A stretch of DNA of 32,712 nt, taken from assembly GCA_007695045.1 (NCBI GenBank), contig REEP01000054.1:1-32712 (forward strand), read 5' to 3'. Within the stretch, counting starts at the first letter, position 1. Each line of letters begins with the position of its first letter. This stretch comes from Rhodospirillales bacterium. Lineage in GTDB: Bacteria; Pseudomonadota; Alphaproteobacteria; Rhodospirillales; Defluviicoccaceae. The notes under the pieces are model-generated. The model ran no database searches. It saw nothing but the letters and a program-made list of their open reading frames with translations, and was not told where the DNA came from. Below are positions 13,389 through 31,284 of the stretch, one piece after another. The position numbers and the translations under genes are program-made.

Positions 13389-14384
13389 CTAGCGAAGGCG
13401 GTACTCGGTGACGGGGCGGACGGCCACCTGCCCGGGGCCAACCACCACCGCCTCAACCACTTGGTTGCTCTGGGCGTTGCTGACGCGGATCGCGCTGCCG
13501 CGGGCGCCATCCTGGAGTGCCCGGCCGCGGGCGGTCAGCAGCATGTGGGACGTCTGGAGCACGATGGTGACCAGATCCCCCTTCCCCACCACCACCGGCT
13601 GGCGTACATCGGAAGCCATCACCGGCGCGCCGGCTCGGACGCCGCGCCGGGCCGTCATACCCACCAGGTCTTCGGCGGCGAGAACGGCATCGGCCTGAAG
13701 ACTCCGGCGCGGCTGCGTGATCCAACGCACGTCACGCGCACTGATCACCTCACCCGCCCGCAGGTTGCGCGCCAGTACCGGCACCTCGGACATGATCTCG
13801 ACCTGGCCATGGACGCGGATCCGTTGGGCAGCCTGACCGGCGGAGTCCACCGCTACCACGGCGTGGACACGGCCGCGGCGCGCATCATAGCTGAGATCCT
13901 CGACCATCAGTTCGGGATCGGCATCCGTCGGCAGGTGAAACCGCATCGTCCGGTTGCTGAACTGCACCGCCGCGGCGCGGCTGTCGACACCGTGCTCGGC
14001 CAGCGCCTCAAGGATCGCCGCCTCGACATCGTCCCGACCGATGACGATGCTGTCCCGGGCCACGGTGACATGGGCATGGATCGTGGCCGGGCGCCAGTCG
14101 AGGCCGTGCGCCGACGCCACCCGGTACAGCCAGCGGGCATCGAAGCGCGCGCTGTGGCCGGGGCTCGGGGCGTGCGCCACCGCCTTCCCGGCATTGGCCC
14201 CGGCATTGTGAAAAAGGTCGCCCAACCGGACCAGCGGGCCGTCCACCACCACCGTGTCCCGGGCCAGAACCGGTCCGCTGCCGGCAAGGGCGGCGAACTC
14301 GGCATTCGCGGTGGCACGACCGGGCCAGATCAGGACCGAAGCAAGCAGAATGGCGCCGAGCCAGTATCGAGCGGTACGCATCAT
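13389..14384 (-). CDS. flgA: FlgA, P-ring assembly chaperone
   Basis: FlgA is a periplasmic chaperone needed to assemble FlgI into the P ring. The 331-residue product has a signal peptide (WLGAILLASVLIWPGRATA, cleavage near residue 26). The C-terminal half carries the SAF-type domain, with VPVLARNLRAGEVISARDVRW and LVGMTARRGVRAGAPVMASDVRQP, followed by KGDLVTIVLQ and a final G-x-V-x-V-RPVTEYRLR. The N-terminal half is longer than in enteric FlgA (about 220 residues), as is common in alphaproteobacteria. Two adjacent ATG codons (14384 and 14381) could serve as start. The gene begins 7 bases after flgG stops. Confidence 0.93.
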   Translation of the reverse strand: MMRTARYWLGAILLASVLIWPGRATANAEFAALAGSGPVLARDTVVVDGPLVRLGDLFHNAGANAGKAVAHAPSPGHSARFDARWLYRVASAHGLDWRPATIHAHVTVARDSIVIGRDDVEAAILEALAEHGVDSRAAAVQFSNRTMRFHLPTDADPELMVEDLSYDARRGRVHAVVAVDSAGQAAQRIRVHGQVEIMSEVPVLARNLRAGEVISARDVRWITQPRRSLQADAVLAAEDLVGMTARRGVRAGAPVMASDVRQPVVVGKGDLVTIVLQTSHMLLTARGRALQDGARGSAIRVSNAQSNQVVEAVVVGPGQVAVRPVTEYRLR

Positions 14385-14391
14385 CAGGGCC

Positions 14392-15177
14392 CTAGCGGAG
14401 CTGGTTGAGCGCGCCCATCATGTCATCCGCGGTCTGGATGACCTTGGAGTTCATTTCATAGGCGCGCTGGGCGGAGATCAGGTTGGTGATCTCCTCCACG
14501 GGATTGACGTTGGAGGTTTCCAGGAATCCCTGGAGCAGGGTGCCGAAACCGGGGGTCTGCGGCGGCGCGACCACCGGCGCACCCGATGCCGGTGTCTCCA
14601 GCAGCAGGTTGCTGCCGATGGCCTGCAACCCCGGCTCATTGGCGAAGTTGGCCAGCTGCAGCTGGCCCACATTCTGAAGCTGCACCTGCCCTTGCAGCTT
14701 CACCAGAACCTCGCCGCTGGCGTTGACGGTCACGTCGATGGCATCCTCGGGAATGGCCACCCCCGGCACCACCACGTAACCATCGTGGGTGACGATCTCC
14801 CCCTCGGCATTGAGCTGAAAGGTGCCGTCGCGGGTGTAGGCGATCTCACCGTTGGGCATCTCGATCTGGAAGAAGCCCTGGCCCTGGATGGCGAGGTCGA
14901 ACGGACTGTCGGTGGCGGCGACGTTCCCCTGGGTATGGATGCGGTAGACCGCCGCCAGCTTGACGCCCAGGCCCAGTTGCACCCCGCTCGGCACGATCGA
15001 GCCGTCATCCCCCGAGGTGGCGCCGACCCGCCTGAGGTTCTGATACAAAAGGTCGTGGAACTCCGGCCGCCGTCGCATGTAGCCGGTGGTGTTCATGTTG
15101 GCGAGGTTGTTGGACACCACCTCGACGTTGCGCTGCTGCGCCAGCATGCCGGTGGCGGCGATGTTCAGGGCTCCCAT
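14392..15177 (-). CDS. flgG: FlgG, distal rod protein
   Basis: This 261-residue axial protein builds the distal rod of the flagellum and is exported by the type III apparatus without a cleaved signal. The N-terminal flagellar rod motif is clear (MLAQQRNVEVVSNNLANMN then TTGY), as is the central DSPFDLAIQGQGFFQIEMP segment. The C-terminal rod domain closes with NVNPVEEITNLISAQRAYE and SKVIQTADDMMGALNQLR. Length matches the family exactly. It lies 67 bases downstream of flgF and 7 bases before flgA. Confidence 0.97.
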   Translation of the reverse strand: MGALNIAATGMLAQQRNVEVVSNNLANMNTTGYMRRRPEFHDLLYQNLRRVGATSGDDGSIVPSGVQLGLGVKLAAVYRIHTQGNVAATDSPFDLAIQGQGFFQIEMPNGEIAYTRDGTFQLNAEGEIVTHDGYVVVPGVAIPEDAIDVTVNASGEVLVKLQGQVQLQNVGQLQLANFANEPGLQAIGSNLLLETPASGAPVVAPPQTPGFGTLLQGFLETSNVNPVEEITNLISAQRAYEMNSKVIQTADDMMGALNQLR

Positions 15178-15244
15178 GGTATGGCTCCTTTTCCAGGCGC
15201 GCCCTCGCCAGAGCGCAGACCGGTGGCAGGCCGTTGCAAGGCCG

Positions 15245-15973
15245 TCACCGCCCGTATTCCTCGATCATCTTGCGAATGCGCTCGTCCTCGCGGTCGATCA
15301 TCCGTGACGCGCTGTCGTAGGCGCGCTGCACCTCGATCAGCCGGGTGATCTCGCGGATCGGCTCGACGTTGGACCCCTCCAGCATGCCCTGTGCCACCTC
15401 CGGCGCCTGCAGGTCCTCGCCCGGCGCTTCCGCCATCAGCAGCCCGCCTTCCACCAGGCGCAGCGTCTGCTCGTTGTCGAAGCCGACGATGCGAAGCCGG
15501 CCGAGTTCGCCGTTCTCGGACGAGACCACCCCGCTGCCGCTGATGGCGATGTCCGCATCCTCGGGGCCAAAAAGTATCGGCTGATCCCCTTCCGCCATGA
15601 CCGGGTGACCATGTTCGGTGACGAGCTGGCCGATGTCGTCCAATCGGAACCGGCCCTGGCGGGTGACGTGCTCGCCCGTGGGCGTCATCACCACGAAATA
15701 GCCATCGCCGACGATGGCGACGTCCAGCGGGTTGCCGGTGGTGATCAGGGGCCCCGCGGTGGTGTCGCGCCGGGTCGCCTGATCGAGCACGAACGACAGG
15801 GTGTCCCCCCTCGAGGTCTCGCCACCGCGGCTCTTCACCAGGACTTCCGCGAACATCGGCTGTTCCGACTTGAACCCCGTCGTGTTCATGTTGGCGACGT
15901 TGTTGGCGATCACCTCCAGGCGGCGACGCAAGGCCGCCTGGTGGGACAGCGCGATCAGCAGCGTGTTTTCCAT
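15245..15973 (-). CDS. flgF: FlgF, proximal rod protein
   Basis: The 242-residue product is a proximal rod subunit. It starts MENTLLIALSHQAALRRRLE, continues with VIANNVANMNTTGFKSEQPM, has the central GNPLDVAIVGDGYFVV segment, and ends with NVEPIREITRLIEVQRAYDSA. The ATG at 15973-15971 is chosen over an in-frame ATG at 16201: rod proteins start right before this motif, an AGGGA lies about 9 nt upstream, and the extra 76 residues are an Arg/Gly/Ala-rich read-through of the intergenic region. It is the first gene of the flgFGAH operon and has a candidate sigma-54 promoter about 50 bases upstream. Confidence 0.95.
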   Translation of the reverse strand: MENTLLIALSHQAALRRRLEVIANNVANMNTTGFKSEQPMFAEVLVKSRGGETSRGDTLSFVLDQATRRDTTAGPLITTGNPLDVAIVGDGYFVVMTPTGEHVTRQGRFRLDDIGQLVTEHGHPVMAEGDQPILFGPEDADIAISGSGVVSSENGELGRLRIVGFDNEQTLRLVEGGLLMAEAPGEDLQAPEVAQGMLEGSNVEPIREITRLIEVQRAYDSASRMIDREDERIRKMIEEYGR

Positions 15974-16025: not shown

Positions 16026-16042
16026 TGCAGGCGCCGTGCCAG
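16026..16042 (-). promoter_or_regulatory. Candidate sigma-54 promoter for flgFGAH
   Basis: Read on the minus strand, the site is CTGGCACGGCGCCTGCA. It has the -24 GG and -12 GC separated by exactly 10 bases and a full TGGCACG -24 box; the -12 box is CTGC instead of TTGC. Transcription would begin near 16015, about 42 bases before the flgF start. Sigma-54 control of rod and hook genes is well established in Caulobacter and relatives, which fits. Confidence 0.6.
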
Positions 16043-16216
16043 CCGGTGACCGGCAGCCATCGCCCCGGCATACCGCCGCTTTCCGGCGACACCCACGCCC
16101 CGCGGCAGCACCAGGCCCAAGGCCCCGGGTCGTTCGTGCCCGGCAAAAGCTGCCGGGGCGGCGCATTTCACCTCGACCGCGCGAGGGCAGAAGGCACCCA
16201 ACGCGGAAACCTCGCC

Positions 16217-16237
16217 TTAACCATGGCCGGCTAGAGT
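16217..16237 (+). promoter_or_regulatory. CtrA-like half-site and -10 element upstream of fliL
   Basis: TTAACCAT (16217-16224) is identical to the CtrA half-site described in Caulobacter. TAGAGT (16232-16237) could be the -10, giving a start near 16244 and a leader of about 53 bases to fliL at 16297. Class II flagellar genes of many alphaproteobacteria are controlled this way. The 323-base gap 15974-16296 also holds a 7-bp hairpin with arms CCCGGCA and TGCCGGG near 16140-16158, of unknown role. Confidence 0.45.
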
Positions 16238-16296
16238 GTCCGGGACGGCGGCGGAGAGGCCGGCCGCCGCAACCGCCGAAGGATGTGCCGCCAGCC

Positions 16297-16806
16297 ATGG
16301 CCGAAGCCGCGACCGTTGCCGCATCGCCTGCGACCGCCTCGAAACTCGGCGGTCTGAAACGGCTTGCCTCACGCAAGGTGTTGCTGGCCATTGCCGCCCT
16401 GCTGTTGCTGACGGCGGTGGGCGGCGCGACAGCCAGCTGGTTCGGGCTGCTCGACCTCGGCCGGGAAGCGGCGGCGCCGAAGGAAGACGCAGCGGTTGCG
16501 GCGCCGGTTTATTACGAATTGCCGGAATTCATCGTGAACATCGATACCGGGGCCCGTCGTTCCAGCTTCCTCAAGCTCAAGGTGCGACTGCAGCTGGAAG
16601 ATCCCGACGCCATTCCCCGGATCGAGGCCCGACTGCCCCGCATCGTCGACCACTTTCAGGTTTACCTGCGTGAACTGCGGCGGGAGGATCTGAACGGCTC
16701 GGCTGGCACCTATCGGATGCGCGAGGAGTTGTTGAAGCGGGTGCGGCTGGACGTGGCGCCCACGCCGGTGACCGATCTGCTGTTCGCCGAAATCCTGATG
16801 CAGTAG
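16297..16806 (+). CDS. fliL: FliL, flagellar basal body/stator-associated protein
   Basis: FliL is a single-pass inner-membrane protein that surrounds and stabilises stator units. The 169-residue product has a cytoplasmic head, one membrane helix at about 27-45 (KVLLAIAALLLLTAVGGAT) and a periplasmic domain with YYELPEFIVNI, SSFLKLKVRLQLED and the typical ending PTPVTDLLFAEILMQ. The start at 16297 is chosen over an upstream in-frame ATG at 16036 because it has a GAAGGA about 12 nt upstream and the longer version only adds Arg/Pro-rich read-through. It heads the + strand fli/mot operon, 85 bases before fliM. Confidence 0.92.
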   Translation: MAEAATVAASPATASKLGGLKRLASRKVLLAIAALLLLTAVGGATASWFGLLDLGREAAAPKEDAAVAAPVYYELPEFIVNIDTGARRSSFLKLKVRLQLEDPDAIPRIEARLPRIVDHFQVYLRELRREDLNGSAGTYRMREELLKRVRLDVAPTPVTDLLFAEILMQ

Positions 16807-16891: not shown

Positions 16892-18040
16892 ATGGCCCCT
16901 CCTTCCCAGGACGACATCGACGCCCTGCTGGCCGGTGAAGATCCGCCGGCCGACGCAGCCGCGACGACCAACGCCGACGAAGCCGGTGACGGCGACAATC
17001 TCGCCTCCGAATGGGAGGCCATGCTCGACGGCGGCGGCGGCGAGCCCGGCGAACAGGGCGAAGCCGGCGGCTCCACCCGGGTTCTCAATCAGGACGAGAT
17101 CGACAGCCTGCTCGGCGTCAGCGCCTCGGAACAGGATACCGGCCCGCGCTCCGGCCTTCAGGCGATCCTCAACAGCGCCCTGATCTCCTATGAACGCCTG
17201 CCGATGCTGGAGGTGGTGTTCGACCGGCAGGTGCGGCTGATGTCCACGAGCCTTCGCAACTTCACGTCCGATAACGTCGAAGTGTCGCTGGACAGCATCA
17301 ACTCCATCCGGTTCGCCGATTACCTCAACTCGATCCCGCTGCCCGCGATGCTGAGCGTGGTCAAGGCGGAGGAATGGGACAACTACGGCCTGATCACGGT
17401 GGATTCGGCGATGATCTATTCCATCGTCGACGTGCTGCTGGGCGGGCGCCGCGGCACCGCGGCGATGCGCGTGGAGGGCCGGCCCTACACCACCATTGAA
17501 CGCAGCCTGGTGGAACGGCTGGTGGAGGTGATGCTCAACGACTTGAGTGCCGCGTTCGAGCCGCTGAGCCCGGTCACCTTCCGGTTCGAACGGCTGGAGA
17601 CCAATCCGCGTTTCGCCACCATCTCGCGGCCCTCCAACGCCGCCATCGTCGCGCGGTTCCGGATCGACATGGAGGATCGCGGCGGCCGGGTGGAACTGCT
17701 GCTGCCCTACGCCACACTGGAGCCGGTGCGCGAGTTGCTTTTGCAGATGTTCATGGGCGAGAAGTTCGGGCGCGATTCCATCTGGGAAAGCCATCTCGCC
17801 GAGGAGCTGTGGCAGACCGAGATTCAGCTGGAGGCGGTGATGGATGAGATCAGCGGCAGCCTCGGCGACGTGTTCAATCTCAAGGTCGGCAGCCGGCTGT
17901 TGTTCGCGGCCGGCCCGGACTCCCTGGTGCAGATGCGCTGCGGCCAGGTGCCCATGTACACCGGCCGGATGGGCCGACGCGGCGAGCGGATCGCCATTCA
18001 GATCGCCGACCGCATTGAGCGCAAGGCGCAACGGGGGTGA
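16892..18040 (+). CDS. fliM: FliM, flagellar C-ring switch protein with two QDxID-LL motifs
   Basis: FliM connects the MS ring (FliG) to FliN and binds phosphorylated CheY to switch rotation. The 382-residue product has the middle CheC-like domain (about 100-280, e.g. ALISYERLPMLEVVFDR and FTSDNVEVSLDSI) and a C-terminal SpoA/FliN-like domain (LEAVMDEISGSLGDVFNLKVG onward). Unusually, the N-terminal CheY-binding signature occurs twice: SQDDIDALL at residues 5-13 and NQDEIDSLL at 66-74, separated by an acidic Gly-rich linker with LASEWEAML. Most FliM proteins carry one such motif at the extreme N-terminus. The stop codon overlaps the next gene. Confidence 0.96.
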   Translation: MAPPSQDDIDALLAGEDPPADAAATTNADEAGDGDNLASEWEAMLDGGGGEPGEQGEAGGSTRVLNQDEIDSLLGVSASEQDTGPRSGLQAILNSALISYERLPMLEVVFDRQVRLMSTSLRNFTSDNVEVSLDSINSIRFADYLNSIPLPAMLSVVKAEEWDNYGLITVDSAMIYSIVDVLLGGRRGTAAMRVEGRPYTTIERSLVERLVEVMLNDLSAAFEPLSPVTFRFERLETNPRFATISRPSNAAIVARFRIDMEDRGGRVELLLPYATLEPVRELLLQMFMGEKFGRDSIWESHLAEELWQTEIQLEAVMDEISGSLGDVFNLKVGSRLLFAAGPDSLVQMRCGQVPMYTGRMGRRGERIAIQIADRIERKAQRG

Positions 18041-18603
18041 TGGTGTTCTGGACTGTTCTGCTTGATGCTTTTCTCGCGATCCTGCTCGCCGTCACCATCG
18101 GCTATGCGGTGGTCCTGAACCGGCGGCTTGCCGCCATCCGCGGCGGATCCGAACTGGACCGCCACGCCACCGGTTTCCACGACGCCGTCACCCGCGCCGA
18201 GGACAGCGTCGCCCGGCTCAAGGCCAAGGCCGACGATCTGCAGCAGCGCCTGGACAAGGCCGATGCCCTCCGCGAGGACCTGGCCCTGCTGGTCGAGCGT
18301 GGCGAGCGGGTGGCTGACGGGCTGGAAGCCACCGTCCGCTTGGCCCGCAATCAGCAGGACGCGGCGCGCACGACGGCCTCGCCGTCGGAACGCAACAGCC
18401 GGCCCGTCGCCGACAAGCCGGCGCCGTCGGCGCGTGGACCGGTCAACGGCAAGAACGCCGGCCGGGCCGCATCGATAGACGGAAAGGGTCGGAACGGAAC
18501 CGCGGCGGCCGGCACGGCCACCCGCGGGACCGCACCGGAACGGCCCCTTCCGAGGTCCCAGGCCGAACGCGAGCTGCTGGCCGCGCTCGCCGCACGAAAG
18601 TAG
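18040..18603 (+). CDS. DUF6468 / PflI-like flagellar positioning protein
   Basis: The product is about 187 residues, with an N-terminal membrane helix (WTVLLDAFLAILLAVTIGYAVVL), a heptad-like coiled coil at about 45-110 (DAVTRAEDSVARLKAKADDLQQRLDKADAL...), a low-complexity Ala/Gly/Arg-rich linker, and a short terminal motif RSQAERELLAAL. This layout and the place right after fliM match the DUF6468 family; Caulobacter PflI, involved in flagellar positioning, lies in the same neighbourhood. The ATG at 18040 overlaps the fliM stop (TGATG); a GTG at 18037 is equally possible. Translation is probably coupled to fliM. The family call is from architecture and context. Confidence 0.7.
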   Translation: MVFWTVLLDAFLAILLAVTIGYAVVLNRRLAAIRGGSELDRHATGFHDAVTRAEDSVARLKAKADDLQQRLDKADALREDLALLVERGERVADGLEATVRLARNQQDAARTTASPSERNSRPVADKPAPSARGPVNGKNAGRAASIDGKGRNGTAAAGTATRGTAPERPLPRSQAERELLAALAARK

Positions 18604-18612
18604 GGATCCCCC

Positions 18613-19344
18613 ATGCGTATCCTTTCGGCCCTGGCACCCCAAGGCCTCCACAAGCGGCTTCGACTGCTGCCCCTGGTCGTGGTCGCCGCTTCACTTGCGC
18701 TGGCCGTCAAGCTCACCCACGTGGGCGACGGTCTTTACGACATCATCCAACCGGCCATGGCGGCCTCCGAGCCGACGCCCCCCAAGCCTCCCGCCGAGAC
18801 GCCGGCGCAGCCCACCGCCGAAGCCCCCGGGTCGACCGGCGGCGACGGTGCGGCGCCTGCTGCCGAAGGCGCCCGGCCGCCGGGCTTCCAGCCACCGCCC
18901 GAACGGTCCCGGCCGAGTGATGCCGAACTCGAGGTATTGCAGCAGCTGACCGAACGGCGCCGTGCCCTGGAAGCGCGCGAGCGGGCGCTTGAGGAACAGC
19001 AAGCCCTGATTCAGGCGGCGGAGATGCGTTTGGACCGCAAGGTGGAGGAACTGCGCGCGATGCAGGATATGCTGGAGGGGCTCATCCAGACGCGCGAGGA
19101 GCAGGAGGACAAGAAACTGGCGTCGCTGGTCAAAATCTACGAGAACATGCGGCCCAAGGACGCGGCGCGAATCTTCGAGCAGCTGGAGATGGATACGTTG
19201 CTGCTGGTCGCGGACCGCATGCGCGAACGCAGCCTCGCTCCGATCATGGCGCAGATGAACCCGCGCAAGGCCAAGGACGTGACGGTCGAGTTGGCGCAGT
19301 TGCGGGCTCTGCCACAACCATGGGCGAATGCCGAGGGATCGTGA
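18613..19344 (+). CDS. motE: MotE-like protein (MgtE_N-like C-terminal domain)
   Basis: The 243-residue product has an N-terminal signal or anchor (LRLLPLVVVAASLALAV, about 17-33), a Pro/Ala-rich linker to about 105, a charged coiled coil (about 107-165, ERRRALEARERALEEQQALI), and a C-terminal MgtE_N-like domain with LVKIYENMRPKDAARIFEQL and AQMNPRKAKDVTVELAQ. In Sinorhizobium, MotE is a periplasmic chaperone for the motor protein MotC. It follows the PflI-like gene by 9 bases and precedes two MotB-like genes. No motC in the rhizobial form is visible nearby; the large exported protein at 20965-24210 may be its client (inference). Confidence 0.75.
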   Translation: MRILSALAPQGLHKRLRLLPLVVVAASLALAVKLTHVGDGLYDIIQPAMAASEPTPPKPPAETPAQPTAEAPGSTGGDGAAPAAEGARPPGFQPPPERSRPSDAELEVLQQLTERRRALEARERALEEQQALIQAAEMRLDRKVEELRAMQDMLEGLIQTREEQEDKKLASLVKIYENMRPKDAARIFEQLEMDTLLLVADRMRERSLAPIMAQMNPRKAKDVTVELAQLRALPQPWANAEGS

Positions 19345-19349
19345 GCGGA

Positions 19350-19367
19350 CGGTTGCGCGCGCAACCG
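19350..19367. other. Perfect 18-base palindrome after motE
   Basis: CGGTTGCGCGCGCAACCG is a perfect inverted repeat six bases after the motE stop. It is the first of three hairpin-forming elements in the 122-base gap before the first MotB-like gene. It has no T tract, so it could be an mRNA-stabilising end or a protein-binding site as well as a terminator. Confidence 0.45.
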
Positions 19368-19380
19368 ACCGGCCATACAA

Positions 19381-19400
19381 CGATCAGGTTGGGCTGATCG
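19381..19400. other. Second hairpin in the motE-motB gap
   Basis: CGATCAG (19381-19387) pairs with CTGATCG (19394-19400) in a perfect 7-bp stem around GTTGGG. It is not followed by a T tract. Confidence 0.45.
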
Positions 19401-19434
19401 CCGAAGCGCGCCGGCTCTGACGGTCGCGATCACG

Positions 19435-19452
19435 GCTTCGCCCAGCCGAAGC
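19435..19452. other. Third hairpin, next to the ribosome binding region of the first MotB-like gene
   Basis: GCTTCG (19435-19440) pairs with CGAAGC (19447-19452) around a 6-base loop, ending 14 bases before the ATG at 19467 and just upstream of the AGG that probably serves as the Shine-Dalgarno. It could modulate initiation. Confidence 0.35.
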
Positions 19453-19466
19453 GGACAGGTATCCCC

Positions 19467-20237
19467 ATGGCAACAGCGTCGAACAGGCGTTGGACCGGTG
19501 GCTTGCTGATCCCGGAAACGCCTGACGATCTCCCCCCTGGCACGGCACCGCTCGCCGGTCCCGCGCCGGCCGCCGGCGCCGGCTGGGCAGCGCTGTTCCT
19601 GTCGTTGATGTTGTTGATCCTGGCATTTTTCGTGGTTCTGGTGAGCATTTCCCAAATCGACGCGGTTCGCTCCGTCGGCGTCATGGGAAGCGTCGCCGAA
19701 GCCTTTGCCGCGGCCAAGACCGATGGCGACACGAGCCCGCCGGCCGGTGCCGCCCGCGGCGACGTGGTGGACGGGGCTGATCTCGAGCAGAGCCTGCAGG
19801 CGCTGTTCGCCACCGAATTGGCCATCGCACCCACCGATGCGGACGTCGCAGGCCGGATGGCGACGTTGACCCTTGCCGCCGAGGCGCTGTTCAGACCGGG
19901 CCGGGCCGAGGTACGCGACCGGGCGGGGCCGTTGCTGGATCGCATCGCAGCGGCCATGGCCGACCGGCCCGCGGGGCTTGGGGTTCGGTTGGACATCGTC
20001 GTGGGCACCGCGGTGGCGTTGGCCGCGGCTACGCCCGATCCGGGCTCACTGGCGATCCGCCGGGCCACCGCCCTGGCCGAGGACCTGGTCCGCCGCGGCG
20101 TCCACCGGCACTGGGTGACGGTGGGCCTCCAGCCCGGCGCCGGAGATCGGGTGGTGCTGGGGTTCGCGCCCCGCATCCGGACCCCCTTGCACCAAACAGC
20201 GGGCGGCAACGATCCCGCTCCGGACACGTCGCCATGA
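19467..20237 (+). CDS. MotB-like/OmpA-family protein lacking the proton-channel Asp
   Basis: The 256-residue product has one membrane helix at about 40-61 (WAALFLSLMLLILAFFVVLVS), in the MotB position and with the LAFF-V-V pattern, followed by a periplasmic region. In MotB the helix begins with an essential Asp (as in A-D-F-M-T); here the aligned position is Ser46. The C-terminal half looks like a weak OmpA-type peptidoglycan-binding domain, with LFRPGRAEVRDRAGPLLDRIA, an IVVGT strand where OmpA domains have E-G-H-T/D, and AIRRATALAEDLVRRGV. It overlaps the next MotB-like gene by 4 nt (ATGA). A stand-alone proton channel is unlikely; a partner of the next protein is more plausible. No MotA is present in the window. 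Confidence 0.7.
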   Translation: MATASNRRWTGGLLIPETPDDLPPGTAPLAGPAPAAGAGWAALFLSLMLLILAFFVVLVSISQIDAVRSVGVMGSVAEAFAAAKTDGDTSPPAGAARGDVVDGADLEQSLQALFATELAIAPTDADVAGRMATLTLAAEALFRPGRAEVRDRAGPLLDRIAAAMADRPAGLGVRLDIVVGTAVALAAATPDPGSLAIRRATALAEDLVRRGVHRHWVTVGLQPGAGDRVVLGFAPRIRTPLHQTAGGNDPAPDTSP

Positions 20238-20968
20238 CCGCGCTGGACGTCCTGGGCGACCACGATGCACACCTTTCGGACCAGGTTCGGAACCTGGTTC
20301 CGGACCAGATTCCGGAGTTGGCACCGGCACCGCCGATCGTGCCACGGCGGACCTGGGTCCTGATCTTCACGGATCTGACGGCGTTGCTGTTGGCGTTCTT
20401 CGTGCTGGTGTTCGCCATGTCCGGCGTGGACCCGCCCCGGTGGCAGGCGACGGCGCAGTCGCTGTCCCGAACCCTCAACCCCGGTTGGGAACCCGCTCCG
20501 CCGCCGGTGGCTGCGTTCAACACCGATCGGGCCGGCGCCAGCATGGGCGTGGACCTCGACTACCTGAGCGCCGTACTGGCCGACATGATCGAGGATATGC
20601 CGCATCTTGGCGATATGACGATGCGCCGGGAGTATCGTGCGCTGGTCCTGAGCGTGCCGACGGATGCGGTTTTTGCCGACGATGGAATGACGCTGACCGG
20701 TCCCGGCGGGCGGCGGCTTGCGGCCGTCGGCGGCCTGATCCGAAATATCGGCAACCCCGTCCGCGTACGCGCCGTGGTGCCGCAGCCGGCTGACGGGCCC
20801 GGGCCGGACAGCGCGGCCTGGGGTGATGCCGTCATGCAGGCTGCGCGAGTCGGGGGTCTGCTGCAGGCGGCCGGGTACCGACGCACCGTGGACGTGCATG
20901 GCGGCCGGGCAGCGGCGGGCGCCGCCGGGACCATCGAGTTCTGGCTGCTGGGCGAGGACCTGCCATGA
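20234..20968 (+). CDS. Second MotB-like flagellar motor protein, channel Asp present
   Basis: The 244-residue product begins with a cytoplasmic segment of about 40 residues and a helix at 41-62 (WVLIFTDLTALLLAFFVLVF). Asp47 in FTDLTALLLAFF aligns with the proton-carrying Asp of MotB. A periplasmic part follows with a MotB/OmpA-like fold that has lost most consensus residues (ALVLSVPTDAVFADDGMTLTGPGGRRLAAVGGLI and AVMQAARVGGLLQAAGYRRTVDV). It overlaps the preceding and following genes by 4 nt each, so all three should be translated together. It may form or modify a stator with a MotA encoded elsewhere. Confidence 0.72.
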   Translation: MTALDVLGDHDAHLSDQVRNLVPDQIPELAPAPPIVPRRTWVLIFTDLTALLLAFFVLVFAMSGVDPPRWQATAQSLSRTLNPGWEPAPPPVAAFNTDRAGASMGVDLDYLSAVLADMIEDMPHLGDMTMRREYRALVLSVPTDAVFADDGMTLTGPGGRRLAAVGGLIRNIGNPVRVRAVVPQPADGPGPDSAAWGDAVMQAARVGGLLQAAGYRRTVDVHGGRAAAGAAGTIEFWLLGEDLP

Positions 20969-23900
20969 AGGGCTCGCCTGCCCGGGCTCGGAAATCGCTC
21001 CGGCGCGGCGTGGGGGCGGCCCGGTCGTTGCCGCCGCCGGCACTGACGGTTCGCGGAATGCTGGCCCTGATGTGGGTCATGGTATTCACGGTGAGCGCGG
21101 TCCTGGCGGACACCAACCCTGCGTGGTCGGCGGAGACGGCGGAGACGGCGCCGTCCATTCGGGTGCGAACCGGCGAACACCCCGGCTTCAGCCGGATCGT
21201 GTTCGACTGGCATGAGCGGGTGGACTACGCGCTCTGGCGCGAGGGCGCGCGGGCGCGCGTGATGTTCTCGAGCCCGGCGCGCTTCGACCTCGGCCGACTG
21301 GGCGCGGTGCCGGCCCGTCGGATTCGTGCCGTCAACCAGGAGCCCTGGCTGAACGGCTCGGCGGTCCTCCTGACCATCCCGGAAAACGCCACGCTCAGCC
21401 ACATGCGTGTGGGCCATCGGGTGGTGGTTGATGTGTGGTCACCGCGGTCACGGCCGCGGCAGGCCGAAGCGGACAGCGATCCCCCGCGCGATCACGAGGT
21501 CGAGGCCGATGCCGAGCCCGACGCCGGACCGGCTGAGCGCGCGGAGCCCGAACGGCCGTCCATCCCCGCCTCGGACGACGCCTCGGAAGCGTCGGCACCG
21601 GTCGTTCCCTTGGTGCCGGAAGAGGAAAGCATAGAGGAGGCTGAGCCTGACGCCACCCCGCCGGCGGACAGCGCAGCAGATAGCCAGACGGACCGCCCGG
21701 GAGAGCGCCCGGCGGATCGTACTGGCGCGGCGGCCCCGAAGCCGTACTCCGCGGCACCAGACTCCACGGCATTGGGCGCGGTGCCCGTCTCGCCCACGGC
21801 GGAGCGACAGCCGCCACCGGTCCCGGAAGTCCCGGAAGCCCAAGAAGTCCCCCAACCCGGGGGCGAGCTGCGGTTGGACTGGGCGGAACCGGTGGCCGGT
21901 GCCGCGTTTCGCCGTGGTCCCTGGGTCTGGCTGGTGTTCGACCGGGCGTCGGAACCGGACGTGACGCAACTGCGCCGCACGCTGGGCGAGTCGGTGGAGG
22001 AGTTGCACCAGATCGCCGGTGACACGGCCACGGTCCTCCGCCTCAAGGCAACCGTGCCCTCGGCCCCGCAGGTGCGGCGGGACGGCGCCGCCTGGTTGAT
22101 CCGTGTGGTTCCGGAAGCGGATGCGGCACCGCCCCGGCGCGCCCTCGAACCGGTGGTCGATACCGGTTCTCCGGCCGGTCCAAGATTGCTGCTGCCGGTG
22201 GACAATCCCGGCGAGCCGATCCCCCTGACCGATCCGGAGGTGGGCGACAACTTCCTGGTGGTGGCCTTAACGCCGCCCGGGATCGGCCTGGCCCGGACTT
22301 GGCAGTATCCCGAACTCGACCTCTCCGAAACCGCCCAGGGCATCGTCGTTCGCCCCAAGGTGGATGACCTTCGCGTGGCGACCACGCCGCGCGGTGTGGT
22401 GATCACCCGACCGGACGGGCTGAACCTGACGCCGGTGACGGAAGCCGAACGCCGGCGGGCCCAATTGATGCACGAGGACGACCTGTCGCGCGTGTTCGAT
22501 CCGGCCTCCTGGCCCGACGTGCTGAGCGGAGACCGCCTGGCCGACCGTCGGACACGTCTGAAGACGGCCACGATGATTGAGAATACCGATCAGCGTGTGG
22601 CAGCCTTGCTGAAACTCGCCCAGTTCGAGCTCGCCCACGGGCTGGCCGCCGAGAGCCTGGGCCCCCTAGAACTGGCGGCGAGCGGTCACCCGGACGCCGG
22701 CCGGGACGTGCGCCTGCCGATGCTGCGCGGCATGGCTCGGGCGGCGATGGGCCGTTACGACGAGGCCGAGAACGAACTGGCGCACCAGGGCCTCGCCGAC
22801 AGCGACGAAGCGGCCCTGTGGCAGGCGGCCGTGCGCGCTTGGCGCGGCGATCTCGTCGGTGCGGCCCCGGACCTGATCCGCACGCAGGGCATCGCCCAGA
22901 GCTATCCGCGGCCGCTCCGGATCCCCTTGGCCGCCGCGCTGGTGGAGGCGGCGATCGCCGACGACCGGCTGGCGGACGCGGAAAACGGGTTCGCCCTTCT
23001 GGCGGCGGACCTCGTCGATCAGGCCGATGCTGCGCCCATGCTGGCCTACCTGCAGGGCCGACTGCACGGCTTGCGCGGCGAGGTTGACGACGCGCTCGCC
23101 GCCCTCGACCGGGCCGCAGTCGGCCGTGACCGGCTGTATCGGGCCAAGGCGCTGTGGGCGGCCACCGACCTGCGTCTGGCGCGCGGCGACATCACGGCCG
23201 ATGCCGCGGTGGAGGCCCTGGAGGGCGTGCGCTACGCATGGCGCGATGATCCGCTGGAGCCACGGCTTCTGCGCCGGTTTGCCGAGCTTTACGGGGCGAC
23301 CGGCGACCACAGGGCCCGTCTGGTGGCACTCCGGCAGGCGGCGACCAGACTTGGCGGCAAACCCGCAGCCGCCGAGATTGCCGCCGAGATGCGCAATCTC
23401 TTCACCGGGCTGTTTCTCGACGGCGATGCCGACGCCATGTCACCGCTGGCGGCGATCGCCCTGTTCGATGAGTTTCGCGAACTGACCCCGCAGGATGAGC
23501 GCGGCAACGAGATGATCCGGCGGCTGGCGGACCGCCTGGTCTCGGTGGATCTCCTGGAGCGTGCCGCCGAACTGCTGGAAGATCAGGTTCGCAATCGCCT
23601 GTCGGGGGTGGAGCGGGCGCGGGTGGGAACGCGCCTGGGCTTGGTCTACGTGCTCGAGCGCCGTGCCGCGGATGCCCTGGCCGCCCTGGACGCCTCCGCG
23701 GCGCCCGGTTTGCCGGATGACTTGGCGCGACAGCGCCGCCACATCAGGGCCCGGGCCCTCGCCGACCTGGACCGTTTCGACGACGCCCTGGCCCTGCTCA
23801 CCGCCGATGACAGCGTTGACGCCGAACGCATTCGGATCGAGGTCGGCTGGCGGCGCCAGGACTGGTCGGCCACCGCCGGCGCACTGGGCCGCCTTGCCGA

Positions 23901-24210
23901 AGCCCTGGGCGTCAGCCCCCGTGACGCCTTGAGCGAGGCCGAGGCGCACTTGGTGCTCAATCGCGCGATCGCCCTGACCCTCGCTCACGAGGACGCCGGG
24001 CTCGCGGCGCTCCAGGATCGCCATGGCGACGCGATGATGGGATCACCCTACCGAGAGGCCTTTCAGCTGCTGGTGAGCGGGGTGGAGGGTCCGCCGGGCG
24101 ACGTTCGCGCCCATCTCGACACGACCGTGGGCAGCGCCACCGGCTTCCAGGCCTTTCTCTCCACTTGGCGTGACCGCGTGCGCGACGACGGGTTGAGCAC
24201 GATCAATTAG
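20965..24210 (+). CDS. Large exported protein: AMIN-like beta domain, acidic linker, TPR-like solenoid
   Basis: The product is 1081 residues. A membrane or signal segment lies at about 31-49 (GMLALMWVMVFTVSAVLAD). A beta-rich domain at about 64-140 (IRVRTGEHPGFSRIVFDWHE) resembles AMIN or related periplasmic beta-sandwiches. Residues 145-295 are a Pro/Ala/Glu/Asp-rich low-complexity linker. A second beta-rich region (about 300-480) includes LRLDWAEPVAGAAFRRGPWVWLVFD. From about 520 to the end it is an Ala/Leu-rich helical repeat of TPR type (e.g. GMARAAMGRYDEAENELAHQG, ADLDRFDDALALL). The ATG overlaps the MotB-like stop by 4 nt (ATGA). Fold and operon suggest a periplasmic scaffold for stator units, similar in layout to Campylobacter PflA; this is inference without a homology search. 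The gene ends at a hairpin at 24210-24233. Confidence 0.72.
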   Translation: MKGSPARARKSLRRGVGAARSLPPPALTVRGMLALMWVMVFTVSAVLADTNPAWSAETAETAPSIRVRTGEHPGFSRIVFDWHERVDYALWREGARARVMFSSPARFDLGRLGAVPARRIRAVNQEPWLNGSAVLLTIPENATLSHMRVGHRVVVDVWSPRSRPRQAEADSDPPRDHEVEADAEPDAGPAERAEPERPSIPASDDASEASAPVVPLVPEEESIEEAEPDATPPADSAADSQTDRPGERPADRTGAAAPKPYSAAPDSTALGAVPVSPTAERQPPPVPEVPEAQEVPQPGGELRLDWAEPVAGAAFRRGPWVWLVFDRASEPDVTQLRRTLGESVEELHQIAGDTATVLRLKATVPSAPQVRRDGAAWLIRVVPEADAAPPRRALEPVVDTGSPAGPRLLLPVDNPGEPIPLTDPEVGDNFLVVALTPPGIGLARTWQYPELDLSETAQGIVVRPKVDDLRVATTPRGVVITRPDGLNLTPVTEAERRRAQLMHEDDLSRVFDPASWPDVLSGDRLADRRTRLKTATMIENTDQRVAALLKLAQFELAHGLAAESLGPLELAASGHPDAGRDVRLPMLRGMARAAMGRYDEAENELAHQGLADSDEAALWQAAVRAWRGDLVGAAPDLIRTQGIAQSYPRPLRIPLAAALVEAAIADDRLADAENGFALLAADLVDQADAAPMLAYLQGRLHGLRGEVDDALAALDRAAVGRDRLYRAKALWAATDLRLARGDITADAAVEALEGVRYAWRDDPLEPRLLRRFAELYGATGDHRARLVALRQAATRLGGKPAAAEIAAEMRNLFTGLFLDGDADAMSPLAAIALFDEFRELTPQDERGNEMIRRLADRLVSVDLLERAAELLEDQVRNRLSGVERARVGTRLGLVYVLERRAADALAALDASAAPGLPDDLARQRRHIRARALADLDRFDDALALLTADDSVDAERIRIEVGWRRQDWSATAGALGRLAEALGVSPRDALSEAEAHLVLNRAIALTLAHEDAGLAALQDRHGDAMMGSPYREAFQLLVSGVEGPPGDVRAHLDTTVGSATGFQAFLSTWRDRVRDDGLSTIN

Positions 24211-27377: not shown

Positions 27378-28142
27378 TCAGCCGCCGAAGCTGCGCACCA
27401 GGCTTCCCACCACCAGGTACCAGCCGTCCACCAGGACGAAGAACACGATCTTGAACGGCAGCGCGATGATGATCGGCGGCAGCATCATCATGCCCATGGA
27501 CATCAGCACCGATGCCACCACCATGTCGATGATCAGGAACGGCACGAAGATCAGGAAACCGATCTCGAACGCGCGCCTGAGTTCGCTCACCATGAATGCC
27601 GGGATCAGGACGCGGAGCGGCACGGTATCCTGATCAAACTCGGCCTCGTCCAGGCCTGCCATGTCGATGAACAGGAGCAGATCCCGCTCGCGCACGTGCT
27701 CCAGCATGAACTGACGGACCGGGGCCACGCTGCGCTCGAACGCCTCCATCTCGTCGATCTCGCCGGCGATCAGAGGCCGGATGCCCTGGTCGTAGGACCG
27801 CTCCATGGTCGGCATCATGATGAACAGGGTGAGGAACAGCGCGAGGCTGATCAGCACCTGGTTGGGCGGGGTCTGCTGCGTGCCCAGCGCGGCACGGACA
27901 AACGAAAGCACCACGACGATGCGGGTGAACGACGTGACCATCACCAGGATTGAGGGCGCCAGGCTCAACACCGTGAGCAGGGCAACCAGTTGCACGACGC
28001 GCCCGGTGGCTTCCGTGCCCTGGTCGCCGAGATCGAGGGACAGCGTCTGCGCCAGCGCCGGCTGCAGTGATGCCGACACGACGGTCAGCGCGATCACCGC
28101 GACGATCGCGATGAGGGCCATGACGGCTGGCCGGGCGCTCAT
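27378..28142 (-). CDS. fliP: FliP, flagellar type III export gate protein
   Basis: FliP forms the core of the export gate with FliQ and FliR. The 254-residue product has a signal peptide (ALIAIVAVIALTVVSASLQPALA) and the membrane helices of the family. Landmarks are the segment LSLAPSILVMVTSFTRIVVV, LSFVRAALGTQQTPPNQVL, and near the C-terminus FLIFVPFLIIDMVVASVLMS followed by MGMMMLPP and LPFKIVFFVLVDGW. The ATG at 28142-28140 overlaps the fliO stop by 4 nt (ATGA); in-frame extension upstream only reads through fliO in another frame. It is the last gene of a three-gene minus-strand operon. fliQ and fliR are not in the window. Confidence 0.97.
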   Translation of the reverse strand: MSARPAVMALIAIVAVIALTVVSASLQPALAQTLSLDLGDQGTEATGRVVQLVALLTVLSLAPSILVMVTSFTRIVVVLSFVRAALGTQQTPPNQVLISLALFLTLFIMMPTMERSYDQGIRPLIAGEIDEMEAFERSVAPVRQFMLEHVRERDLLLFIDMAGLDEAEFDQDTVPLRVLIPAFMVSELRRAFEIGFLIFVPFLIIDMVVASVLMSMGMMMLPPIIIALPFKIVFFVLVDGWYLVVGSLVRSFGG

Positions 28143-28459
28143 CGCCGTTCCCCCGCCGCGTGGCCCGGTATCCGGGTGACATCCTCCGGCGCGGCCGGAA
28201 TACCCCGTTCCACCAGAAGTTCCGATGACGGCCCCAGGATCACCAGATGTTCCACGTCGTCCCGGCGGATCAGCACGAGTCGCCGGCGGGCATCCAGCGT
28301 CCGCACCTCCACCACCGCGAGACGTCGCCCTCGGCCTGCACTGCTCGCGGCGGCAAGGCCGCCTACGCCCAGGCGCCGTGCCAAGACCGCAAGCACACCG
28401 ATCAGCGCCAGGACGAAAACCAACGCCAGGACGAATTGAAGGTAATTGGCCATGTCCAT
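28139..28459 (-). CDS. fliO: FliO, flagellar export gate assembly factor
   Basis: FliO helps FliP assemble into the export gate ring. The 106-residue product has one N-terminal helix (YLQFVLALVFVLALIGVLAVLARRL, about 6-30) and a cytoplasmic beta-rich tail with RRLAVVEVRTLDARRRLVLI, RRDDVEHLVILGPSSELLVE and GIPAAPE, typical of FliO/FliZ. It is 51 bases after the FlhB-C-like gene and overlaps fliP by 4 nt. Confidence 0.9.
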   Translation of the reverse strand: MDMANYLQFVLALVFVLALIGVLAVLARRLGVGGLAAASSAGRGRRLAVVEVRTLDARRRLVLIRRDDVEHLVILGPSSELLVERGIPAAPEDVTRIPGHAAGERR

Positions 28460-28510
28460 GGGATCGCCGGTCAGCTGGCGGGGCCGAACGAAGTCGGCAT
28501 CGTAGCGGGC

Positions 28511-28864
28511 TCAGCCGGGCTGCGGGCCGTCGGCCGCGGTCGGGTCGGCGTCGTCCGCCTGTGCCGGCAGCATGCCGTTGGCGCGGTAGACATAGGCCAG
28601 GACCTCCGCCACGGCGACGAACGCCTGCACCGGGATCGTGCTGCCCACCTCCACGGCTTCCAGGACCTCCGCCAGGTCGGCATCCTCGCGTACCTTGATG
28701 CCATTGGCGAAGGCGATACTGAGGATCTGTTCGGCGATGGCGCCGCGGCCGCCGGCGACCACCCGCGGCGCCTCGTCGTTCTCCGAATCGTAGGCCAAAG
28801 CGACGGCAACCTTGCCGCGGTCGACAGGCGGGGCGGAGGTGCCGGTGGGGTCGCTGTCGGCCAT
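28511..28864 (-). CDS. Stand-alone FlhB C-terminal-domain-like protein (FhlB/FlhX type)
   Basis: The 117-residue product matches the cytoplasmic domain of FlhB/YscU export-switch proteins: GKVAVALAYDSENDEAPRVV, a GGRGAIAEQILSIAFANGI segment, LAEVLEAVEVGSTIPVQAF and a final VAEVLAYVY. It has no membrane helices and lacks the NPTH self-cleavage motif of FlhB, so it corresponds to the short FlhB homologues found in many flagellated bacteria that can replace the FlhB C-terminal part in substrate switching. The ATG at 28864-28862 is used; a longer in-frame start at 29212 would read through a non-coding gap. It leads the operon with fliO and fliP. Confidence 0.82.
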   Translation of the reverse strand: MADSDPTGTSAPPVDRGKVAVALAYDSENDEAPRVVAGGRGAIAEQILSIAFANGIKVREDADLAEVLEAVEVGSTIPVQAFVAVAEVLAYVYRANGMLPAQADDADPTAADGPQPG

Positions 28865-28923
28865 CGCGCGTTCTCGCGTGCACTGGATGGTTGAACACCG
28901 GGACCCACAGTGCCGCGTTAACG

Positions 28924-30105: not shown

Positions 30106-31284
30106 TCAGTCCGCGGTTACCCGGGACGCTGCCAGGGGCATCGGCGCCGCCGGCGGGACGAACGCTTCCGGCCGTTCGGCCGGCAACGTTTCCACATAGA
30201 GCGAGCGGCTGGGGAAGGCGAACGCGGTGCCGGCGCCTTCCACGATCTCCTTGACCCGATAGGCGAGCGCTTCCTTGATGCGCAGCCACTCGCCCCAAAC
30301 GGTGGTGCGGGTGAAGCAGTACACCATGATGTCGATGGACGAGTCGTTGAATGAATCGATCCGGACAAACATCGCCACCTCCGGCGGCTTGGCGAAATCC
30401 GGGCTCTCCAACAGGTAGCTCTCGATCCCGTCGCGGATGCGGCGGAGCTGATCCACGCTGGTGCGGTATTCCACGCCGATGGTCCAGTAGATGCGGCGGT
30501 GGGTCATCCGGGTGAAGTTTGTGACCGCGCTGTCGGCCAGCTGCGCATTGGGCACATAGACCGGTGCGCGGTCGAACCGGCGCACCAGGGTGGAGCGGAA
30601 GCCGATGGTCTCCACCGTGCCCTCGACCACGTTCTCGACCCGGATCCACTCCCCGGGCTGGAACCGTTTCTCACCCAGCACCAGGAGCCCGGCAATCAGG
30701 TTCTTGAAGAGGTCCTGCGCGCCGAGCGCGACGGCCACGCCCAGCAAACCCAGACCGGCGATAATCGGGCCGATGCGGATGCCCCAGATTTCGAGGATGG
30801 TCGCCGCCGCGATCAGCAGCAACACGATCTTGATGGTCTTGACGAACCATTGAACGAGGGCGGGGGTGAACACCTGTTCCAGCCGGCGGAACCGCCCGGA
30901 GATCGGGTCGACCAGGTTGAAGAACGCCCAGAAGATGTTGAACACGATCAGCGAGCGCACGAGATGGTCCGCCATCACGCCGAAGGTGCCCGGAATGTTG
31001 AGATATTCGAAGGTGATGAAGGCGCCGAGCACCACCGGGATGAAACGGACCGGGTCGTGCAAAGCGCCGACCACACGGCTGTCGTCCTCGGGTCGGCGCC
31101 GGTGGATCCAGTGTTCCACCCGGTCCAGGATCAGGTGGCTCAACAGGCGGCGGAACGCGAGGAAGCCGACAAAGATCAGCGCGGCCACCAGCAGCCGGCC
31201 GATATCGATTCCCAGCACGCCCTGCTGCCAGACCTCCACCACCAGACGCCAGAACGCATCCAGCTTCTGCATCACCTCCGCCAC
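30106..31284 (-). CDS. MscS-family mechanosensitive ion channel (second copy)
   Basis: The 392-residue protein has several membrane helices in the first 165 residues. The MscS pore helix lies at about 177-200 (GLGLLGVAVALGAQDLFKNL), leading into a beta domain with LGEKRFQPGEWIRVENVVEG, TVETIGFRSTLVRRFDRAPVY and VPNAQLADSAVTNF. The C-terminal cage follows to about residue 365. Sequence and pore motif differ clearly from the MscS gene at 2992, so these are separate subfamilies. The GTG at 31284 is preceded by GGGAGGT; an ATG at 31272 is an alternative. No partner genes are coupled to it. Confidence 0.9.
   Translation of the reverse strand: MAEVMQKLDAFWRLVVEVWQQGVLGIDIGRLLVAALIFVGFLAFRRLLSHLILDRVEHWIHRRRPEDDSRVVGALHDPVRFIPVVLGAFITFEYLNIPGTFGVMADHLVRSLIVFNIFWAFFNLVDPISGRFRRLEQVFTPALVQWFVKTIKIVLLLIAAATILEIWGIRIGPIIAGLGLLGVAVALGAQDLFKNLIAGLLVLGEKRFQPGEWIRVENVVEGTVETIGFRSTLVRRFDRAPVYVPNAQLADSAVTNFTRMTHRRIYWTIGVEYRTSVDQLRRIRDGIESYLLESPDFAKPPEVAMFVRIDSFNDSSIDIMVYCFTRTTVWGEWLRIKEALAYRVKEIVEGAGTAFAFPSRSLYVETLPAERPEAFVPPAAPMPLAASRVTAD

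Follow-up and report, generated by a model that had tools for sequence, protein, structure and literature searches.

Why should two MotB-like genes lie between a motE gene and the gene of a large scaffold-like protein? The question is raised by a 32,712-nucleotide stretch of DNA from a Rhodospirillales bacterium of the Defluviicoccaceae (assembly GCA_007695045.1, contig REEP01000054.1, positions 1 to 32,712 of the forward strand; hereafter the window). It encodes, next to flagellar genes, a MotE-like protein, two MotB-like proteins (B1 and B2) and a large protein of the tetratricopeptide repeat (TPR) kind. A sequence-only reading had taken these four open reading frames (ORFs) for an undescribed motor-periphery module with a PflA-like scaffold, and the ORFs were confirmed where it had placed them. 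In the current study the genes appear to encode an overlooked flagellar stator, spread across Alphaproteobacteria. The two MotB-like proteins are unlike, the ion-binding aspartate being present in B2 alone, and they track an unlinked PomA-type MotA (MotA'); a second stator is therefore more likely than a mere part of the motor periphery. New here are the unequal pair and its link to MotA', and the half made up of MotE and the AMIN/TPR protein is of a known kind.

In flagellar stators five A-subunits surround two B-subunits, and an Asp of each B-subunit binds the ion. Canonical MotB requires one such Asp in its membrane helix.

The asymmetric MotB-like pair

The ion-binding Asp was kept in all 146 aligned B2 rows. 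At the matching column B1 had Ser in 75, Gly in 36, Ala in 30, Asn in one and Asp in one of 143 rows, i.e. a small residue (Ser, Gly or Ala) in 141; the rows behind these counts are not independent, since at least six named contigs may repeat others. Lacking the ion-binding Asp, B1 is a MotB-like paralogue only and is not classed as MotB. A pair of phenylalanines at +8/+9 of the Asp site is common to the membrane helices of B1, B2 and the canonical MotB of the window's genome, and its retention in B1 is as expected if B1 packs inside the ring of A-subunits.

MotB_plug was detected in 88 of 95 B1 members, and none of the 95 had a Pfam OmpA match (both at expectation values, E, up to 0.001). The window's B1 matched the OmpA-type TssL model with E 2.2e-6, far under the cut-off of that model. 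In an AlphaFold2 model of B1 (mean predicted local distance difference test score, pLDDT, 76.6) the periplasmic domain has an OmpA/MotB-type fold; Foldseek placed PA0833 (OmpA-type, E 4.8e-8) first, followed by H. pylori MotB (2.3e-7), PomB (4.5e-7) and MotS (4.4e-6). For B2, MotB_plug was found in 15 of 15 aligned members and the OmpA family in 13. The OmpA-type peptidoglycan motif of B2 had its Asp in 102 and its Arg in 132 of 146 rows, and the peptidoglycan-binding residues are gone from B2 of the window and of locus L034, from the same genus. Both proteins of the window score above the MotB_plug cut-off of 24 bits.

In a tree of 54 rows, from which eight long-branch rows (five B1, three B2) had been omitted, so that the supports hold for these 54 only, B1 formed a single clade (100/100) and B2 another (94/79, slightly below the firm-support mark). 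Both clades were separate from canonical MotB and from the other MotB-type proteins included. Two matches to B2 on Azospirillum plasmids, examined out of four Azospirillum records, were set aside: they belong to a usual type of A-B pair next to genes of ATP synthase, and not to this system. On L351 and L352, both Azospirillum plasmids, a stator-like A-B gene pair lies just 5' of F-type ATP synthase genes.

Distribution and gene order in relatives

The TPR protein was found in 176 of the 199 genomes of the order. Conservation of gene order was checked in 20 loci of the order, and fliM-DUF6468-motE-...-TPR was kept in every one of them; with these two results, the block is not a chance arrangement. 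B1 and B2 were present in 15 of the 20 loci, and speD and speE followed 3' of the block in 12. Across the class, a profile search for B2 in 385 genomes matched 86 of them (E up to about 2e-20); of 40 class loci that were read, 39 had B1 and all 40 had B2 and the TPR gene. A set of 80 named loci picked by their match to B2, several of them truncated by contig ends, held B1 in 78, the TPR gene in 75 and MotE in 72, with Thalassospira, Terasakiella pusilla, Oleispirillum, Ferruginivarius and Pelagibius among the carriers. The sequence-only reading had placed the structure in this lineage; the block occurs in many families across the class, and a lineage-specific origin was dropped.

In all 127 loci having both genes, B1 lies immediately 5' of B2 and on its strand, and the TPR gene comes after B2 in 124 of 125. 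Translation of the gap between motE and B1 in 12 B1-bearing loci of the order revealed cheY-like and cheZ-like ORFs in seven and one of the two in four (assigned by eye), and profiles built from such ORFs detected cheY in 64 and cheZ in 61 of the 80 named loci. The window (gap 19345-19466) and L034 have no room for cheY or cheZ at this place. One locus (L222) combines MotE, cheY/cheZ-like genes, B1 and B2 under the public title Planctomycetota, and is probably a mislabelled bin.

A candidate A-subunit at an unlinked locus

The canonical MotA and MotB of the window's genome are encoded on another contig (C64), and the only MotB_plug proteins found in this genome are canonical MotB, B1 and B2. 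No A-subunit gene was found beside B1 and B2; in the scanned loci the canonical MotA of this genome had no match. The interval from motE to B1 was considered as a site for an A-subunit comparable to motA2 of Cereibacter, and rejected; the extra ORFs that relatives have there look cheY/cheZ-like by eye, and no family search was made on them. Some nearly complete genomes (G016, G025 and others) have B1 and B2 and no MotA_N protein.

A search of 25 genomes with PF13677 and PF01618 detected, in most of those having B1 and B2, an A-subunit without a MotB neighbour. In the window's genome this protein, MotA', is encoded at 75945-76739 of contig C10, matches PF01618 above the cut-off and sits between fliN and a sigma-54 regulator gene. 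The cluster there reads fliF-fliG-(fliH)-fliN-motA'-(flbD)-flhA-flhF-flhG, with fliH and flbD named by position; the ORF at the fliH position in this genome had no family match. MotA' was directly 3' of FliN in all 38 loci read (18 from the order, 20 from the class), with other genes of the cluster nearby; in one locus FlbD precedes FliN, and cluster names are missing from some loci, owing to contig ends or divergence.

The PomA and MotP models matched all 17 aligned MotA' proteins over their full length and scored best. The MotA' of the window's genome covers 2-248 of the 254 positions of the PomA model at 215 bits, under the 341-bit cut-off, and it also stays under the cut-off of the MotP model. 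Residues of MotA' are strictly conserved in the family alignment. PomA/MotP-like A-subunits are associated with sodium, and the likeness to these proteins hints that sodium may be the coupling ion of a MotA' stator.

Two other candidates were discarded. The first candidate for an orphan A-subunit in the window's genome, on contig C73, matched the MotA' family with E 8e-4, versus 7e-85 for the copy on C10, and has ExbD-type/uptake neighbours by eye. A region of genome G027 (L316) was dropped at E 3.5e-4; 18 of 20 candidate regions held MotA'.

Co-occurrence of MotA' with B1 and B2

Genomes were counted with thresholds set after the tables had been seen: in the order, E below about 1e-16 for B1 and up to 1e-73 for MotA', and in the class, up to about 2e-20 for B2 and up to 1e-70 for MotA'. 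On this basis about 146 good genomes of the order comprised 97 with B1 and MotA', six with B1 only, none with MotA' only and 43 with neither. The set of good genomes, here and in the TPR-positive counts below, was compiled by hand with 146 members, an automatic count giving 148. The corresponding numbers for all 199 genomes of the order were 116, 18, 4 and 61. In the class, 79 of 385 genomes had B2 and MotA', seven B2 only, 22 MotA' only and 277 neither. Eighteen of the 22 MotA'-only genomes were searched for the TPR gene, which was found in 16, and reading of 12 loci from MotA'-only genomes revealed divergent B1 and B2 in ten.

The 135 good TPR-positive genomes of the order divide into 96 with the trio (MotA', B1 and B2), 33 without B1 and MotA', and six with B1 only. 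Canonical MotA_N was present in 32 of the 33 and missing from nine of the 96 trio genomes. Genomes that keep the TPR gene and lack both B1 and MotA' occur in seven families (f1, f2, f4, f19, f20, f23 and f28), of which f1, f19, f20 and f28 also include trio genomes. MotA' thus tracks B1 and B2, and not the mere presence of the scaffold gene.

The proposed stator and its alternatives

We consider it somewhat more likely than not that MotA', B1 and B2 form a stator apart from canonical MotAB, probably with a heterodimeric axle carrying one Asp and held by MotE and the TPR protein. B1 and B2 would be the B-subunits and the unlinked PomA-type MotA' from the fliF-flhG cluster the A-subunit, with one B1 and one B2 forming the axle within a MotA' pentamer (a predicted stoichiometry of 5:1:1). 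If B1 and B2 pair there would be a single ion site, and therefore five ions per turn instead of ten; with Asp on B2 only, the MotA' ring would advance once per ion per 72-degree sector, not twice. MotE (as E-ring) and the AMIN/TPR protein (as MotK/PflA-like spoke) would make a periplasmic scaffold, and the unit would be anchored to the wall by B2, in most relatives, and by the AMIN-like domain of the TPR protein. The scaffold could hold the MotA'-B1-B2 stator, given that MotB2 of Cereibacter is bound by both MotK and MotE (PMC10954123). Of this picture, the genes, their conservation, the uneven Asp and the joint occurrence with MotA' are observed, whereas the B1-B2 pairing, the stoichiometry, the use of ions and the binding to the scaffold are predicted. 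The fuller proposal, i.e. a natural MotA'5-B1-B2 stator across Alphaproteobacteria that has a one-Asp axle, moves in 72-degree steps per ion and leaves one B-subunit free for docking to the MotE/MotK scaffold, has in our judgement an even chance of being right.

Several observations weigh against such a stator. B2 could homodimerize, the dimer of B1 and B2 being a predicted one. The single B1 with Asp (L142, 7777-8556) also has a B2-like membrane helix, the sole such row of the 143; it possibly arose by gene conversion from B2. The window's B2 has lost the peptidoglycan-binding residues and 44 of the 146 B2 rows lack the OmpA-type Asp; as a speculation, the AMIN-like domain of the TPR protein may have taken over wall anchoring from the window's B2. 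At L154 a B2 gene (5010-5747) has no adjoining B1 and lies directly 3' of an isoleucyl-tRNA-synthetase-like gene (by eye), and no motE was found there within the 15 kb read. Two of the 12 loci read from MotA'-only class genomes have motE-cheY-cheZ-TPR without B1 and B2, and six good genomes of the order have B1 without a detected MotA', among them G152, which gave a partial match only. The co-occurrence counts are uncorrected for relatedness. Trio genomes without MotA_N still have other A-B pairs (three in G016), so that the trio may not be the sole stator of any good genome; in G183, which is 80% complete, only MotA' with B1 and B2 was seen and no other pair.

The main rival explanation is that B2 homodimers, with two Asp, form an ordinary 5:2 stator with MotA', and that B1 is a separate Asp-less accessory that might, for instance, activate the stator or connect it to the TPR/MotE scaffold. 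This would fit the finding that B2 alone has all the hallmarks of MotB in most relatives (the membrane Asp and, in 13 of 15, the OmpA domain), the missing Pfam OmpA match in B1 and the solitary B2 of L154. However, B1 keeps a MotB-type membrane helix with the phenylalanine pair and, in nearly every row, a small residue in place of the Asp, which is more than a plain anchor would need; the B1 and B2 genes are tightly coupled, and the window's B1 still matches the OmpA-type TssL model, although far under the cut-off. On balance we regard the accessory role as rather unlikely.

That B1 and B2 are structural parts of the scaffold with MotB-like anchors, conducting no ions with MotA', which would then use another B-subunit, seems improbable. 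Their genes adjoin motE and the scaffold gene with no motA found beside them, and canonical MotAB is encoded elsewhere in the window's genome, which speaks for this explanation. Against it stand the invariant Asp of B2 and the presence of MotA' following that of B1; moreover, judged by MotB_plug, MotA' has no other partner in the window's genome except canonical MotB. We give hardly any credence to the proposal that B1, B2 and MotA' are relics in a motor driven by canonical MotAB or by other pairs, with motE and the TPR gene the sole reason for keeping the block. The seven families with members that keep the TPR gene without B1 and MotA' are in line with it, but the Asp of B2 and residues of MotA' are strictly conserved, and in nine good genomes of the order the trio occurs without MotA_N (though with other pairs).

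The probable periplasmic scaffold

An AlphaFold2 model of the TPR protein (mean pLDDT 83) comprises a beta domain (64-158) and, beyond a disordered acidic linker (about 163-294), another beta-rich part (301-481) followed by a helical solenoid (493-1080). The protein is probably exported, judging by eye from its signal-peptide-like N-terminus. In the window's protein no Pfam TPR match and no AMIN-like match was found at E up to 0.01, an AMIN-like match reaching a sub-threshold 15 bits; among 18 aligned relatives TPR_16, the commonest TPR family, was detected in nine and the AMIN-like domain in seven at this E. The best 50 matches listed for the model were generic TPR proteins and PflA was not among them, which is uninformative either way.

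The interpretation given by the sequence-only reading, with its comparison to PflA, held in part. The best PDB match of the model was 9hmf_K from the motor scaffold of Campylobacter, a chain that we infer from its length to be PflA (E 2.3e-9, the next match 4.8e-7), and the template modelling scores were low, only 0.19/0.25. These results suggest a fold common to the TPR protein and the Campylobacter spoke, the comparison with PflA being by fold only. The TPR gene was in flagellar surroundings at nearly all loci with enough flank (L154 excepted), which bears out its assignment to a motor-periphery module with a PflA-like scaffold; it is not mostly found away from flagellar genes.

The description of this half as new did not stand, since MotE-MotK and FlgY-PflA are published (PMC10954123, PMC13023049, PMC11870540). 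The Cereibacter proteins MotE and MotK are reported to be periplasmic and to bind each other and MotB2, and rotation requires them both; in MotK an AMIN-like domain is combined with TPR-like helices, and a distant homologue has been proposed in CC_2058 (PMC10954123). MotE is grouped with FlgY/FlbB as the E-ring protein, and MotK/CC_2058 with PflA as the spoke (PMC13023049, PMC11870540). CC_2058, or FssB, is a TPR protein carrying a secretion signal, and functions in surface signalling that depends on the stator (PMC7885107). In the current study the MotE-like protein of the window matched the FlbB model with E 4.6e-5, under the cut-off, and MgtE_N was detected in 21 of 21 aligned members (E up to 0.01).

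The gene block in the window

The genes of the block are listed in table 1. B1 overlaps B2, and B2 the TPR gene, by four bases (ATGA).

Table 1. Position and supporting matches of the genes from fliL to the TPR gene in the window.
Gene or product	Position	Strand	Observations
fliL	16036..16806	+	stator-associated membrane protein; Pfam FliL 60.4 bits; position kept in relatives; begins the conserved block
fliM	16892..18040	+	C-ring switch protein; TIGR01397 above cut-off
DUF6468 protein	18037..18603	+	PF20072 51.7 bits; single N-terminal membrane segment (by eye)
MotE / FlgY / FlbB-type E-ring protein	18613..19344	+	243 residues; MgtE_N 22.2 bits, under the 25.9 cut-off
B1, MotB-like	19467..20237	+	256 residues; one transmembrane helix; Ser46 where MotB has its ion-binding Asp; MotB_plug 32.5 bits
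B2, MotB-like	20234..20968	+	244 residues; one transmembrane helix; ion-binding Asp D47; MotB_plug 39.6 bits
MotK/PflA-like TPR scaffold	20965..24210	+	1081 residues; AlphaFold2 model, PDB fold match

The DUF6468 protein is possibly PflI, by analogy of its gene position with the order fliL-pflI-motE (PMC10954123). An ORF of 364 residues without a Pfam match (14254-15348) lies 5' of fliL and has a recognisable counterpart at about this position in 17 of 20 loci of the order. On the minus strand, residues 307-500 of a 506-residue ORF (27378-28898) are FliP; its long N-terminal part may reflect start-codon choice or a fused region. The window also has two genes of MscS-type mechanosensitive channels (2992-4401 and 30106-31284).

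Comparison with known systems

The stators PomA-PomB and MotP-MotS have one A-subunit and one kind of B-subunit, and their genes are usually adjacent. In the system described here MotA' scores highest with the PomA and MotP models and B2 with those of MotS and MotD (for B2 all under the cut-off), and one A-subunit goes with two unlike B-subunits encoded at unlinked loci.

Cereibacter sphaeroides Fla2 MotE-MotK (PMC10954123) and Caulobacter CC_2059/CC_2058 are alike in the gene order fliL-...-motE-...-AMIN/TPR and in having a periplasmic partner of MotE with an AMIN-like domain and TPR repeats. Cereibacter differs in having motA2 between motE and motK, a place taken here by B1 and B2 (in many relatives after cheY-cheZ-like genes), with the A-subunit gene elsewhere; the scaffold protein is also longer, with 1081 residues versus 652 for MotK. 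The FlgY-PflA system of Campylobacter jejuni (PMC11870540, PMC13023049) shares an MgtE_N-type ring protein and a beta/TPR spoke, and, unlike the present system, has no Asp-less MotB pair in the available text of its description. The gliding motor AglRQS of Myxococcus likewise combines one A-type protein with two MotB/TolR-like B-type proteins, but AglQ and AglS both have the Asp and the motor is non-flagellar (PMC9389320).

Significance of the pair

In the literature searched, no flagellar MotB without the Asp was described as the partner of one that has it, a weak absence given the thin coverage of subscription papers. According to a review, two equivalent B chains give ten ions and 36-degree steps per turn, and ten-fold symmetry is 'almost certain to be a universal feature' (PMC9389320). 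If the stator proposed here is real, it would be a natural exception to the models of 5:2 motors with two equivalent MotB chains, in which step size and the number of ions per turn would be directly testable. A survey of MotAB assigned B-subunits by their proximity to MotA (PMC12505986), a method that, as described in the available text, would leave MotA' unpaired with B1 and B2. The present results may identify the B-subunits that serve the PomA-type MotA of the core flagellar cluster in many Alphaproteobacteria, and would tie the E-ring and spoke scaffold to one specific stator type.

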